From contig DAHUZB010000010.1 in NCBI GenBank assembly GCA_027306785.1, positions 1 to 64,000 of the forward strand: a stretch of 64,000 nucleotides of DNA, written 5' to 3'. This document shows, piece by piece, positions 56,879 through 64,000 of the stretch. Source of the DNA: Vulcanimicrobiota bacterium (lineage in GTDB: Bacteria > Vulcanimicrobiota > Vulcanimicrobiia > Vulcanimicrobiales > Vulcanimicrobiaceae). Each line of letters starts with the position of its first letter. The first letter of the stretch is position 1. The notes below the pieces were generated by a model that saw only the letters and a list, made by a program, of their open reading frames with translations, had not been told where the DNA came from and searched no databases. Position numbers and translations under genes: made by a program.

Positions 56879-58435
56879 ATGCGCCGTCTCGCGTTCGCGC
56901 TCATCGCGCTTCTCGGCATCAGCGCCTGCTCGCGCCCGGTGCGGCCCGCCGACCGCGTGGTCGTGGTGCAGCAGCGCGAGCCGATCTCGCTCAACGCCGC
57001 GCTCGAAAACGGCGTCGCCTCCACCGAACTCGGCCTGCTGCTCTACAACTACTTACTGAAGTGGAACGATCGCGGGCAACTCGTCGGCGACGTTGCGACC
57101 GCGGTGCCCACCCGCGCGAACGGCGGCATCAGCCCCGACGGCCGCACGATCACCTACCATCTGCGCCCGAACGTGCGCTTCGCCGACGGTACGCCGCTCA
57201 CCGCGCGCGACTGCGTCTACTCGATCCACGCGATTCAAAACCCGCGCAACAACGTGCAAACGCGCTACGGATACGATCGCATCCTGCGCGCCGAGGCGCC
57301 GAACCCGACCACGCTCGTGCTGCATCTGCGCGAGCCGTTCGCGCCGATCTTCACCCTCGTGCTCGCGCCGCAAGGCTTTCCCATCCTCCCCGCCCACCTG
57401 CTCGCGAAGTATCCGAATTTCAACCATATCGCCTTCGATCGGCACCCGATCGGCGGCGGCCCCTACGTGGTGCAACGCTGGATTCACGGCGACCGCATCG
57501 AGCTACGCGCGAACCCGTATTATTTTCGCGGCGCACCGAAGATCGCGCACCTCACCATCCGCTTCGTCGCCGATCCGAACACCGCGATCAATCAACTCCG
57601 CACCGGCGAAGCCGACCTCTTCTTCAACGACGAGGACATGGGCAACGTCACGATCCTGCGCACGATTCCGCATCTCACCGTGCTGCGCACGCCCATGAAC
57701 GCCGTCGGCGCCTTGATCTTCAACACCGCCGATCCGCAGTTGCGGCACGCGAACGTGCGCCGCGCCATCGCGCAAGCGATCGACGCACCGACGCTCGTCG
57801 CCAAAACGTATCGCGGCGCGGTCGATGCGCGCGACGTGGGCCGCGGCCTCTTCGAATGGGCCTACGATCCGCGCTTCCCGCTCGCCGTTCCCTACGACCC
57901 GGCCGCCGCGCGCCGCACGCTCGCCCCGCTGCACCTGCATCTCCTGATGGCCATCGAAGCGGGCCTCCCGGGCGATGCGATCATCGGTAGCGCCGTGCAG
58001 CAATATCTGCGGGCCGCGGGCGTCGATCTGCAGCTCAAAGCCTTCGAAGCGACGCAGTTCGTCTCGCCCGCGGCGATGGGCGGCCCCGTGTACGACGGCA
58101 AGTTTTCACTCGCACTCTACCCGTTCGTCAACGGTGACGACCCCGATGTCATCGATCAGTTCGCCTGCGCGAACGTGCCGCCGAACGGCTATAACAAGTC
58201 CCGCTTTTGCGATTCCGCGCTCGATGCGGTAATGCGCCGCGCGCGCAGCACCTACGACCCGCACGCGCGCCTCGCCGCCTACGCGCGGGTGCAGTCGATC
58301 CTAAGCCGAGCGCTGCCGATCGAACTGCTCTACCAACGCCGCGAGATCGACGCCTACACCGCGCGTCTGCGCGACGTCACCGGATCGGTCTCCACCATCT
58401 TCTGGAACGTCGCACAATGGCACACCGCGCCGTAA
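56879..58435 (+). CDS. Oligopeptide-type ABC substrate-binding lipoprotein (SBP family 5)
   Basis: This 518-aa lipoprotein has a signal ending GISAC. The SBP_bac_5 fold shows VVQQREPISLNAALENG, TYHLRPNVRFADGTPLTARD, HPIGGGPYVVQRW, NPYYFRGAPKIAHLTIRF and FNTADPQLRHANVRRAIAQAID. Such proteins bind peptides, nickel or sugars outside the membrane for a permease that is not encoded nearby. Its end overlaps the next gene by 19 bases. Confidence 0.9.
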   Translation: MRRLAFALIALLGISACSRPVRPADRVVVVQQREPISLNAALENGVASTELGLLLYNYLLKWNDRGQLVGDVATAVPTRANGGISPDGRTITYHLRPNVRFADGTPLTARDCVYSIHAIQNPRNNVQTRYGYDRILRAEAPNPTTLVLHLREPFAPIFTLVLAPQGFPILPAHLLAKYPNFNHIAFDRHPIGGGPYVVQRWIHGDRIELRANPYYFRGAPKIAHLTIRFVADPNTAINQLRTGEADLFFNDEDMGNVTILRTIPHLTVLRTPMNAVGALIFNTADPQLRHANVRRAIAQAIDAPTLVAKTYRGAVDARDVGRGLFEWAYDPRFPLAVPYDPAAARRTLAPLHLHLLMAIEAGLPGDAIIGSAVQQYLRAAGVDLQLKAFEATQFVSPAAMGGPVYDGKFSLALYPFVNGDDPDVIDQFACANVPPNGYNKSRFCDSALDAVMRRARSTYDPHARLAAYARVQSILSRALPIELLYQRREIDAYTARLRDVTGSVSTIFWNVAQWHTAP

Positions 58436-59958: not shown

Positions 59959-60093
59959 CTATAGACATTTCTTGCTTACAGGATCGGGAGCGTCCTCAGG
60001 ACTCAAGGTAACGTAAGCCGTCAAACCACCTCTCAACACTTTATGTGCGCGCAAGACAATGTGTTTTTCGGCAAGCATGTCAATTGACTGCAT
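59959..60093 (-). CDS. Possible 44-aa remnant after the Z1 gene
   Basis: This short frame starts at ATG 60093, overlapping the Z1 gene's last codons, and encodes MQSIDMLAEKHIVLRAHK followed by LTAYVTLSPEDAPDP. Its codon use resembles the Z1 gene. In typical Z1 loci a nuclease gene follows; this could be its truncated start, or a small partner, or a chance frame. Confidence 0.35.
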   Translation of the reverse strand: MQSIDMLAEKHIVLRAHKVLRGGLTAYVTLSPEDAPDPVSKKCL

Positions 60094-62206
60094 AGAGCGC
60101 CGGCGTAGCTGACGACGGAACCTGCACGACTGGCCACCAGAATCCCAATCCACGCCAGCCCCTTTCTTCGGTGCCACTTTGACGCATCAAGTAAAGCACA
60201 GGATTTGTCCGCGCCACCTCGGCGGCGAAATCGTGCTGTTGCTTCGTGGTGGGAGAGTTCGACAACCGATTGCCACGCAGGCGACTGACCTCACGGCCCC
60301 GAGCCACGATCACATATACGAGTTGATTAGCGCTCGGCGCACTAGATAGCCATCGAAGACTGGTCAGCATTGCCGCCTTGTATCCGCCACCATCCTCGTC
60401 CTCGAAAACCAGGTTTGAGAATGCCATATCCAGCAAGCGCTCGGCCTCGTTGACCGGTAGCGGAGTCGGCGACTGTTGCGGATCAGGGATTAATCGAGAG
60501 ATTTCCGCGTCCAGCTGGTCAAGTCGTCCCTGCCCGCGAAGCGCAGCCACTGTATTGAAACCCGTTGGCGTCATCCGATGCCCGGGCCTAAGCGCGTAAA
60601 CCTCAGAGCTCAGGAGCTTATTCGGTGCACACGGAACAACGCGACCGCTTTGATCCTGTTGAACGAAGTAGACCCCCTGATCGTCGTAATCGCCACGAAT
60701 AAACGCCTCACGAAGCGCCGCATCCAGATGATGAATCTGGCGCATTCGATTATATACAGCCTGCGGCGCGTACAAGCGCGTAACACCAAGATCGCCCTGC
60801 GATCGTGCACCATACATACGTGAATGCTGAAGCACCGTGTCTTGCTGAGACTGCTGTGGGTTTCGACCATAATAGAAACCTATTAGATTACGAATCGTAA
60901 TCCCTCGATCCAAGATTTGCCCTCCGATGAAAAGGTTCATCGGCGTACGAAGACGGAGTTGGCCAGAGCTATCCAGCAAAGCGGTTACGTCGCCGTCCGA
61001 ATTGACCTTTTCCGCCGTTAACTCACCGTCGCGCAACGAACGCGACACTTCGACGCGGATCTCGTCGAAACTCGGCATTGACTGACCGGAAAGGAGCACG
61101 GACGCCTCGATGTCTTCGTACGACTCGTGTACCAGGTCCTCGAAAAGCGTAGTGCCGTCATCGATCGATTCGACAAATCCCTGCCAAAGCGCATCGACCA
61201 CCTGCAACTGCCACTCATGGGAAGGCCGGCCACGTTCGGTATGCACGACGAAGGAGTATTTCTCGCGTTGCTGACCAGCGGCGGCCTGCGCTAACCGGCG
61301 TACCGCGACACCAACCACAAAGTTCATCAGAGCCCGCCGAAGCACGGCAATCCTCGGACTGATTAGGGCGTCTTCTATTTTGAAGCTGCGACGGTCCGGC
61401 GCACGCAATATGTCCCGTTCGGATGCGGGAACCGGTTCATAGAAGCGTGACGCTGGAGAGTTTGCGTCGAGGCTATGCTCAAAGTAATACTCGCCACCTA
61501 CATAGGCCGCATGCGTCGGAAGAACCACCGTAAATCCCGGGCGCCTCGGGCGCATGATCGGAATTCCGTTCACGACAACACCTTGCTCCGGCTGCAGGTA
61601 CAAAGAGTACGGGGTCGCCGTGACCTCAAGAAACTGAGCGTTGTGCAAAGCCTCGCGAAGGTCTTCGATTTGCTGATTAATGGTTCCGGGCACCACTACC
61701 GTTCCATCGCGGCGAAACGTAATCGAAGCAAAATCCGCTTCGTCATCGATTATCAGCCAGCGACGATCTCGCCATTCCGGATAGTCTTCTGAAACCAGTT
61801 CGAGCAGCGCAGCCAGATTATCGTCTTCTTTCTTTGCGACGATAATAATTCGCTGATTTCGCTCGAACGGTGACAAACGAGACGGCATATTAAGGATGTC
61901 GAACATTTGGCATTCGTCACGATCGCTCAAATGTGCGAACGCTTCCTCGATCCGTGCAAGGGTCTGCTTTGCGAGAGTTACTGTTCCCTTCGTAAGAACA
62001 ATCACGCCTCGATAACCCTCATCAAAACAGGCTGCGATCACACCGAGAAATGCCCGGGTCTTGCCGCTCTGAATCTTACCCAGGAGCATTCCCGGATGAT
62101 TTGTATCCGTCTCCATTGCCTGCAAGCGAGCAACAGTGTCAGCGACCACGCCGCGCAGACTTGCATCATCACCGCGAGCGTTTGCGAGGTCCTCATAAAA
62201 AGACAT
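60080..62206 (-). CDS. Z1-domain superfamily II helicase-like protein
   Basis: This 708-aa protein has helicase-type motifs: Walker A GKIQSGKT (about 43-50), Walker B WLIIDDEADFAS (about 151-162), motif III LEVTATPYSLYL, and C-terminal motifs LDRGITIRNLIGFYYG and QDTVLQHSRMYGAR. These are hallmarks of the Z1 family, known from predicted defence and restriction neighbourhoods with MORC-like ATPases, nucleases and methylases. None of those partners is seen here. The ATG at 62206 is preferred with AAGGAG about 10 bases upstream. Base composition and codon use differ from the flanking genes, suggesting transfer. Confidence 0.85.
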   Translation of the reverse strand: MSFYEDLANARGDDASLRGVVADTVARLQAMETDTNHPGMLLGKIQSGKTRAFLGVIAACFDEGYRGVIVLTKGTVTLAKQTLARIEEAFAHLSDRDECQMFDILNMPSRLSPFERNQRIIIVAKKEDDNLAALLELVSEDYPEWRDRRWLIIDDEADFASITFRRDGTVVVPGTINQQIEDLREALHNAQFLEVTATPYSLYLQPEQGVVVNGIPIMRPRRPGFTVVLPTHAAYVGGEYYFEHSLDANSPASRFYEPVPASERDILRAPDRRSFKIEDALISPRIAVLRRALMNFVVGVAVRRLAQAAAGQQREKYSFVVHTERGRPSHEWQLQVVDALWQGFVESIDDGTTLFEDLVHESYEDIEASVLLSGQSMPSFDEIRVEVSRSLRDGELTAEKVNSDGDVTALLDSSGQLRLRTPMNLFIGGQILDRGITIRNLIGFYYGRNPQQSQQDTVLQHSRMYGARSQGDLGVTRLYAPQAVYNRMRQIHHLDAALREAFIRGDYDDQGVYFVQQDQSGRVVPCAPNKLLSSEVYALRPGHRMTPTGFNTVAALRGQGRLDQLDAEISRLIPDPQQSPTPLPVNEAERLLDMAFSNLVFEDEDGGGYKAAMLTSLRWLSSAPSANQLVYVIVARGREVSRLRGNRLSNSPTTKQQHDFAAEVARTNPVLYLMRQSGTEERGWRGLGFWWPVVQVPSSATPALYAVN

Positions 62207-62354
62207 CAAAAATATTCTCCTTTAGCCGGATACACTTGCTAAACCACCGAACAAAACACGTTATTCGCGTTCGCACGTCATACCAAAAGAGTTCGCCGAA
62301 GGCCGGACGTGATCGACGTGATCGTCGAGACCAAGTTAGACGGCTCGGACGCAA

Positions 62355-63881
62355 TTAGAGCCCGTCCTCACGTAGCTTCGCAAGGAGCTGATATTCGCCC
62401 GTGACTGCGAATGCGCGATAAATGCGTTGCTTGTGTATGCGGACCGTATTCGGGCTCATCGAGAGCCGTGCTGCGATTGCCTCGGTTGCTAATCCTTCGT
62501 CCTTGATAAGGGTAACAATTTCGTTTTGCCGCCTCGTCAGGCGCTCCGGCACATTGCGGCCAAGAGTGGCTAAGCGCTTGTACTCGACGCCCAGAAAGCT
62601 CCTCGGAAACGTCTCCGCGTCCGCCTTTGCCCGCTGAAGCCACTGTTGACCTCCGCTGAGACGGAAGAGGAGCAGCGCCAAGTTTGCGGCGCGCCAGCGA
62701 TATCCGTAGCGCTCAAATATAACGATCGCAGCTGTCGCATGACGCTCGGCTTTACGGCGACTGTGTCTGGCCGCACACACGAATGCAGCCGCCTCATCGC
62801 GGAATGCGCGTAGCCGTTCGTCGTGCGCAAAACTAATGTGAGCAGGAACTGCAACTTTGTCCGCCTGATCAAGATAGCCGATAGCCAGATCAACATCGAC
62901 GTCTGACATCAAACGGGCCAACAAAAGCAGTCCGCCTACCTCTTCACCCTTTACCGCATCCCACTCTATCGAGCGCGCGCATCGTCGAGCCTCCCCGAGT
63001 TCGATGCGTTGATGGACACCTTCGCGCGATGCTGCGGCAATCCAAGCGCGGTCCAGGTGAACGAGCATTTGCTGGTAAGGCGTTGCCGCAATCGAGAAGG
63101 CTTCCGCAAGCTCCTCTCCGGCAAGCAAGTGTTGGCCACGCATTGCATGGGCCCATGCCGTCGTGCGTAAGACGGAAAAGCGCTCATCCGCCAAATCGTG
63201 GGTCCATTGGATATCGTCGTAGCCTTCGACACAGGCAATCGCATCGGTATCGACCGTCTCTCGCGCCAACGCAGCTAGAACGCGCAGTGTTCGTGCGGCA
63301 ATAATGCAATTTCCACGATCGCTGGCGAGTTGTAGGCCCACGTAAAGGCAGTCCAATTGAGATCGAATGTTGCGCTGAAATGCCAGGCACCAACCTCGAA
63401 AAAACCAGTTCATCTCGCTCCGATCGGTTTCATTGATCGAGTCGAGTTCGGAAAGCGCCCGGACGTAGTCGCCTGCGGCGAGTCGAGCCGAAGCACGGTA
63501 GCAGGCAACATCGTCGTCGACCGCAGCCGCTGCGCCGTCAAGTACATCTAGCGAGGTCTTCACGTCGCCCGTCGATGCAAGACAGGCCGCGAGAATCGCT
63601 TGCACCAGCGGGTCCCGATCGATATCCGAGATCACGCGCCCGACGTTCGCAATCAGCGTCACGGCATCTTTACGGCGCCCGCACCAATAAAGCACTTGCG
63701 TCTCCAGCCGCACGCGTTCGCGCGAAAGCGACTGATACGCCAAGGCGTCCAATGCCGCGGCAAAAGCGCCACGACGGAATAAAACATACGCGTCAACAAG
63801 CGGCGAGGCACAGCCGCTCGAGTCCGAAGCCCACACATGAGTGACCTTCGCGCTCTCGAGCGCCTGACCTCGTCGCCGCAC
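62355..63881 (-). CDS. LuxR-type regulator with helical repeat sensor region
   Basis: This 508-aa protein has an N-terminal region of about 430 residues composed of TPR-like helical repeats (FAAALDALAYQSLSRERVRL, LVQAILAACLASTGD, HATAAIVIFERYGYRWRAA). A C-terminal LuxR helix-turn-helix follows (LTRRQNEIVTLIKDEGLATE, AIAARLSMSPNTVRIHKQRI). It likely binds a peptide or protein signal through the repeats. It starts at GTG 63881, five bases after the stop of the repetitive-peptide gene, so the two form an operon. No phosphoacceptor domain is present. Confidence 0.85.
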   Translation of the reverse strand: MRRRGQALESAKVTHVWASDSSGCASPLVDAYVLFRRGAFAAALDALAYQSLSRERVRLETQVLYWCGRRKDAVTLIANVGRVISDIDRDPLVQAILAACLASTGDVKTSLDVLDGAAAAVDDDVACYRASARLAAGDYVRALSELDSINETDRSEMNWFFRGWCLAFQRNIRSQLDCLYVGLQLASDRGNCIIAARTLRVLAALARETVDTDAIACVEGYDDIQWTHDLADERFSVLRTTAWAHAMRGQHLLAGEELAEAFSIAATPYQQMLVHLDRAWIAAASREGVHQRIELGEARRCARSIEWDAVKGEEVGGLLLLARLMSDVDVDLAIGYLDQADKVAVPAHISFAHDERLRAFRDEAAAFVCAARHSRRKAERHATAAIVIFERYGYRWRAANLALLLFRLSGGQQWLQRAKADAETFPRSFLGVEYKRLATLGRNVPERLTRRQNEIVTLIKDEGLATEAIAARLSMSPNTVRIHKQRIYRAFAVTGEYQLLAKLREDGL

Positions 63882-63886
63882 CGTGA

Positions 63887-64000
63887 CTAGAAGCCGCCCC
63901 CGATGGTATCGGCCGCGGTTACTGTCGGCGCCACGGCTTTAAATCCGCCACCGATCGTGTCCGCGGGCGTCACGACCGGGGCTTTAGCCGTGAACCCCCC
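63887..64000 (-). CDS. Partial gene for a repetitive C-terminal peptide
   Basis: Only the last 37 codons are in the window. They encode two near-identical units, VTPADTIGGGFKAVAP and VTAADTIGGGF with stop, plus the end of a third, GGFTAKAP. So the full protein carries tandem copies of ADTIGGGFKA-like sequence. It is directly upstream of the LuxR gene. The start, length and export signal lie outside the window. Confidence 0.65.
   Translation of the reverse strand, partial: GGFTAKAPVVTPADTIGGGFKAVAPTVTAADTIGGGF

Follow-up and report, generated by a model that had tools for sequence, protein, structure and literature searches.

Candidate peptide-communication module of an exported repeat precursor and a TPR-GerE regulator in a diderm bacterial phylum

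At the right edge of the window (the whole stretch of 64,000 nucleotides analysed here, G000:C30:1-64000), a minus-strand open reading frame (ORF) that encodes DTIGGGF units is cut by the end of the stretch; its stop codon lies at 63887, and it is followed by the gene of a LuxR-type regulator. Does the repeat gene encode a signal, and is the regulator its receptor? The sequence was followed past 64000, where contig C30 runs on, and the pair was compared with its relatives. The two genes are read here as a peptide-communication module, made up of an exported repeat precursor and a TPR-GerE regulator, with a probability of roughly 0.6.

The precursor gene and the adjoining regulator

63887..64000, (-): precursor, C-terminal 37 codons and stop; start 81 bases past the window edge
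63890..63910, (-): third DTIGGGF unit, abutting the stop codon
63941..63961, (-): second DTIGGGF unit
C30:63992-64012, (-): first DTIGGGF unit, split by the window edge
62355..63881, (-): TPR-LuxR regulator, 508 aa, GTG start 5 bases past the peptide stop
62568..63803, (-): helical-repeat (TPR-type) sensor, about residues 27-438, from an AlphaFold model and family-level TPR matches
62385..62543, (-): GerE (LuxR-type) DNA-binding domain, residues 447-499 (Pfam PF00196, E 6e-8)

Extension past 64000, proposed in the first-pass annotation for finding the start and leader, located the ATG at C30:64081, with a Shine-Dalgarno sequence (AAGGAG) 5 nt 5' of it, and a hydrophobic N-terminus that was called by a hydrophobicity rule as a Sec-type signal peptide with a plausible signal-peptidase site. 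The complete gene (C30:64081-63887, minus strand) encodes 64 aa, MLFIHALFSLFLCLAPQGHVHA-MDTIGGGFTAKAPVVTPADTIGGGFKAVAPTVTAADTIGGGF, then stop, or, split by unit, MLFIHALFSLFLCLAPQGHVHA MDTIGGGFTAKAPVVTPA DTIGGGFKAVAPTVTAA DTIGGGF, stop. The tandem units that had been annotated on the truncated gene are thus present in the whole one: after the signal peptide, three identical DTIGGGF units begin at residues 24, 41 and 58 (17-residue period), and the last abuts the stop codon. A large repetitive structural protein lacking an export signal, which the annotation had named as the outcome that would speak against it, was rejected, the whole gene having 64 codons and an export-type signal.

Between the three copies, 6 of 7 positions differ in synonymous codons and no amino acid differs (15 synonymous and 0 non-synonymous codon pairs), an absence of non-synonymous change that is partly built in because copies were chosen by amino-acid pattern. 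The informative point of the comparison is, at the level of codons, the synonymous divergence, which was likewise seen between unit copies in over 20 other precursors; because of it, the DTIGGGF repeat does not count as a recent duplication at the DNA level. The spacers between the units vary in amino acids. That a small ORF had arisen by chance was rejected on two grounds, the codons used in the repeats and the homologous small ORFs of relatives. The DNA word for DTIGGGF occurs 3 times in the 3.14-Mb genome, always in the precursor gene. In related genomes, which the annotation had also proposed to search for the motif, the DNA word was found nowhere else among 149 genomes of the phylum; D-x-GG-type motifs were found in the precursors of relatives. 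Pfam matched no family in those precursors that were scanned.

The regulator gene indeed starts five bases after the repeat gene (stop 63887; ORF 62355-63881), and the helical-repeat sensor first noticed in its translation was borne out by structure prediction: AlphaFold, run on a five-sequence alignment, models an all-helical superhelix of repeats with an HTH after it (mean pLDDT 87, pTM 0.80). Searched against the PDB, a profile of 47 homologues (about 484-527 aa in length) matched consensus TPR proteins as well as HTHs of the GerE/NarL type. Pfam TPR models were significant in a minority of the homologues and only sub-threshold in the window regulator itself. The TPR fold serves protein interaction in general, and Foldseek matched the model to general TPR proteins, mostly eukaryotic ones. 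Among the significant matches listed, the highest target-normalised TM-score (0.58; rank 34 by E-value) belonged to the Rap receptor of phage Phi105 with its peptide, a match that fits peptide sensing by the regulator and is no proof of it. Within its own genome, a search for paralogues of the regulator gave matches at the level of the HTH domain only and no full-length paralogue.

Homologous pairs and their precursors

Within the same family, 69 of 99 genomes have regulator homologues, often several each and up to 10 per genome, as do 2/4 genomes of a neighbouring family of the order and 3/14 of a further family of the class; none was matched in the single-contig genome G086. A conserved-stretch search of genome contigs with four regulator sequences returned 5 named loci, all from Candidatus Eremiobacterota MAGs, and no relative was found on viral contigs. 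Vulcanimicrobium alpinus, a cultured member of the phylum with a genome of 3,508,363 bp, has a typical Gram-negative cell wall (PMC9758169).

A small precursor or a long lipoprotein is encoded directly upstream of about 105 of the 136 regulators with enough upstream sequence. These 136 fell into 45 with a small Sec-type precursor, 34 with a small lipoprotein, 26 with a long lipoprotein and 31 with none recognised; 91 precursors were called automatically, and manual addition brought in 13 long lipoproteins (alternative starts or low scores) and L011. Signal peptides were assigned with the hydrophobicity rule, not with SignalP, and some of the short Sec-type calls are doubtful. The small exported precursors consist of a Sec or lipoprotein signal and one to nine copies of a private motif, mostly of D-x-GG type. 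Repeats in such precursors include DTPGGPIP x3 (L041), ADSIGGPL x3 (L091), five DS(I/V)GGP units (L077), D(T/S)SGGPM x3 (L038), DTGTTTGK x3 (L034) and DAGGPSG x2 (L015). DSVGGGPVP x5 (L086), DSVGGGPP x4 (L047) and nine (V/I)VGGGPTPAG-type units (L066) were found in lipoprotein-type precursors, and EGSHPPY x3 (L153) and DGTLPPY x2 (L154) in those of the neighbouring family. In other precursors a single motif lies near the C-terminus (...GDSVGGGPG in L009, ...LDSTGGMDGD in L070). The third class is an upstream lipoprotein of about 300-340 residues, mostly with a DTLGG-, DTHGG- or DVIGGG-like motif soon after the lipobox; one of these gave a weak DUF4382 match, below the cutoff. That the motif of one subfamily sits in so long a lipoprotein, of ~320 aa, counts against a simple pheromone precursor.

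The association was compared with control ORFs, which were other long ORFs of the same loci. A 20-150-aa ORF with a D-x-GG motif and a hydrophobic N-terminus was found in 49/106 loci (the first 106 testable ones) versus 4/262 controls (Fisher p 2e-26, which is optimistic because the loci are related). Precursors differ strongly between clades, and their class tracks the regulator tree (22 changes versus 73 in shuffles). Because paralogues within one genome carry different motifs, such as DTPGGPIP, DSFGEGGGG and NDSGGAMTGD in G076, they are probably separate channels. Sequence comparison shows that the pairing of a precursor with a TPR-GerE regulator has been kept in a large family whose motifs are private.

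Two groups of homologues depart from this plan and weigh against the peptide-communication reading. A clade of 13 TPR-LuxR homologues (L156-L163, L155, L167, L170, L114, L116), all counted among the 31 regulators above, has no recognisable upstream peptide; its peptides may be encoded elsewhere, or it may have another ligand. Sensor-only homologues of about 460-490 aa, which lack GerE (L173, L174, L175, L176, L177, L178, L179, L181, L182), are mostly still preceded by exported peptides (DSTHGGAV repeats in L173, IASWGAIIVG x2 in L178), and are possibly Rap-like receptors that work without DNA binding.

Promoter dyads, neighbouring genes and alternative readings

C30:64118-64133: candidate operator dyad TAGTCG-CGGA-CGACTA (on the other strand TAGTCG-TCCG-CGACTA)
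C30:64190-64205: candidate operator dyad TAGTCG-TCGA-TGACTA (on the other strand TAGTCA-TCGA-CGACTA)
C30:64256-64819, (+): divergent degenerate HD-GYP-like gene, 187 aa

Both dyads lie upstream of the peptide gene, in the about 175 bp that separate it from the divergent gene. The pattern was taken from the window before being searched for. In its relaxed form (TAGTCR-N4-YGACTA) it occurs twice in the whole genome, both times in this upstream region, and across 699 kb of loci 7/7 occurrences lay upstream of a peptide gene, at a distance of 300 bp or less. For the strict form (TAGTCG-N4-CGACTA), the 99 genomes of the family gave nine sites. Four lie upstream of a peptide-regulator pair in the window's clade or among its relatives (G000, G065 and two loci of G023), and a fifth, at L197 (G097:C42:80095), adjoins an ORF that the regulator profile matched more weakly. 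Since a reversed control pattern was overall not rarer than the dyad, the signal is one of site placement, not of number. Near-matches (0-2 mismatches) numbered 10 versus 0.8 expected. The dyad is taken as a conserved candidate operator of the peptide promoter, and local autoregulation is suggested.

The small exported proteins might be targets rather than ligands, namely surface or secreted peptides (adhesive, antimicrobial, metal- or matrix-binding) whose operon is under a TPR-LuxR protein that senses something else. In favour of this, the conserved dyad points to operon control and not to the ligand of the regulator, structural and antimicrobial peptides, too, often have tandem repeats and lipoprotein anchors, and the same slot is held by the longer DUF4382-like lipoproteins. 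We regard this reading as unlikely, although it is the strongest of the rivals: some precursors offer little building material, with a single motif within 38-50 aa (L070, L090, L095), paralogues carry private motifs, immunity or transport genes do not lie alongside, and the regulator has a fold of protein- or peptide-binding type.

The divergent HD-GYP-like gene recurs at this position in the window's clade; its product, which can be aligned to a canonical protein of HD type (L173, HD_5), lacks the metal-binding core. In the long-lipoprotein class, a recurrent gene lies directly 3' of the regulator in about 24 loci and encodes a PAS-GGDEF-EAL protein in the one that was typed (L102); the order long lipoprotein, TPR-LuxR, third gene is nearly contiguous and kept across genera. 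Next to the regulator in L026, L032, L044, L048, L049, L067, L068, L086 and L090 (DSVGGGP-type and some other loci) is a gene of nucleotide-cyclase plus NB-ARC type, the domains having been typed in L068 only. Neighbours were clustered with an arginine filter against frame-shadow ORFs. Second-messenger proteins are recurrent partners of the regulator family, and because the neighbours in sister subfamilies encode GGDEF-EAL or nucleotide-cyclase proteins, second-messenger control is a likely theme.

Around the module itself, a Z1-domain ATPase gene (PF10593; window 60080-62209) follows the regulator, a gene with a LigD-type primase-polymerase domain (L002 4870-6129) adjoins the divergent gene, and a C5 methyltransferase, a Vsr endonuclease and an NgoMIV-type restriction enzyme are encoded a few kb to the other side (L002 8023-10431), as if the peptide module, together with other genes, had interrupted a restriction-modification island.

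Under the peptide-communication reading, the precursor would be exported and cut into short DTIGGGF-containing peptides, which would return to the cytoplasm through an Opp-type ABC transporter. Their binding there to the TPR superhelix, on its concave side, would switch the regulator, and the regulator, acting on the TAGTCG-N4-CGACTA dyads, would control both the divergent HD-GYP-like gene and the operon to which it belongs. The genome has 11 genes for OppA-type binding proteins (SBP_bac_5), one of them at window 56879-58435; these permit peptide re-import, and no more. A dedicated protease or importer linked to the module was not found; of the protease and transporter genes that the annotation had proposed to look for past 64000, no dedicated peptidase or exporter turned up among those ORFs of the 20-kb extension that were typed.

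Neither protease nor importer is necessary if the pair is an export monitor, in which the TPR-LuxR protein binds the unexported precursor or motif in the cytoplasm and reports on Sec or lipoprotein export instead of on other cells. Such a monitor would account for the motif on the long lipoprotein and for the cotranscription of precursor and regulator; it leaves unexplained the several identical units per precursor and the private motifs of several paralogues in one cell, and we hold it somewhat less probable still than the target-gene reading. A ribosomally made and modified natural product (RiPP) with its pathway-specific regulator, the other option raised at first, is very improbable, for although some RiPP precursors are known with repeated core units and the regulator adjoins the precursor, no modifying enzyme, cyclase, dedicated peptidase, exporter or peptidase-exporter was seen among the typed genes of the 20-kb extension or the recurrent neighbours, Sec or lipoprotein signals stand in place of RiPP leaders, and the core motifs of paralogues follow no consistent Cys/Ser/Thr pattern.

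Peptide signalling through a helical-repeat LuxR protein, as the first-pass annotation had proposed, is thus the best supported reading, by comparative genomics, with an exported precursor, a TPR fold, ~100 pairs, units conserved at the peptide level and a promoter dyad. For the family, the best reading of the sequences is an RRNPP-like peptide communication whose receptors have an inverted architecture and whose hosts are diderm. We put at even odds the wider proposal of a large, hitherto undescribed multi-channel peptide-pheromone family, whose TPR-GerE receptors would sense exported peptides of tandem D-x-GG type and would govern second-messenger proteins, as an independent counterpart of the RRNPP systems of Firmicutes.

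Comparison with known signalling systems

Intracellular-receptor peptide signalling has been described as a trait of Firmicutes (PMC10075063), and the open-access literature held no report of LuxR-type or peptide signalling in Eremiobacterota, nor of DUF4382 with LuxR. If the reading is true, the ~100 pairs with private motifs extend such signalling to Gram-negative-type cells. They would also supply ready synthetic peptides and predicted operators for reporters in a mostly uncultured phylum, and form a natural data set on which TPR residues read which peptide.

With the LuxR/LuxI systems for AHLs the module shares a C-terminal GerE domain, a (here candidate) dyad operator and the local autoregulation suggested here. 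It differs in having a TPR superhelix in place of the autoinducer-binding domain (no such Pfam match), and a LuxI-type synthase was not seen beside the regulator; identity as an AHL LuxR protein was rejected, the N-terminal part being TPR. MalT and other LAL regulators likewise combine helical repeats with a C-terminal GerE domain, but the present regulator has no N-terminal STAND ATPase (no NTPase match) and about 500 aa versus about 900, and a MalT-type identity was rejected on the missing NTPase match. In enterococcal sex pheromones the signal peptide is embedded in a lipoprotein precursor; here the motif belongs to the mature part, past the lipobox, and the adjoining gene encodes a TPR-GerE regulator.

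The closest likeness is to RRNPP/RRNPPA systems (Rap-Phr, NprR, PlcR-PapR, AimR, AloR-AloP), which likewise have a small exported propeptide adjoining an intracellular TPR receptor, the peptide often being C-terminal in the propeptide. Propeptides with multiple pheromone copies are known among them (PMC9765709), as are many parallel peptide-receptor pairs per genome, in Paenibacillus (PMC7425212). In a survey that covered Firmicutes and viruses only, they were recognised by a Sec-exported propeptide of 10-100 aa encoded directly adjacent to the receptor gene (PMC10075063). The precursor of the window has 64 aa, a hydrophobic signal peptide (rule-called) and a 5-base gap to the regulator gene, and the receptor is of TPR type by its AlphaFold superhelix and the family profile matching TPR structures. 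At 508 aa, the regulator lies marginally outside the receptor length of 250-500 aa. Its HTH is a C-terminal GerE domain (residues 447-499) placed after the TPRs, whereas RRNPP(A) receptors have an HTH N-terminal to the TPRs or none. RRNPP(A) hosts are Firmicutes or mobile elements, whereas the named relatives here all belong to Candidatus Eremiobacterota, a phylum of Gram-negative type. The module further differs in that the precursor gene lies upstream, many precursors are lipoproteins, the motifs are different, the window's clade has the TAGTCG-N4-CGACTA dyad and several subfamilies have second-messenger neighbours. From its sequence, the module is predicted to work most like RRNPP(A), as peptide/TPR-receptor signalling with another HTH position and type, another phylum and, marginally, another receptor length.
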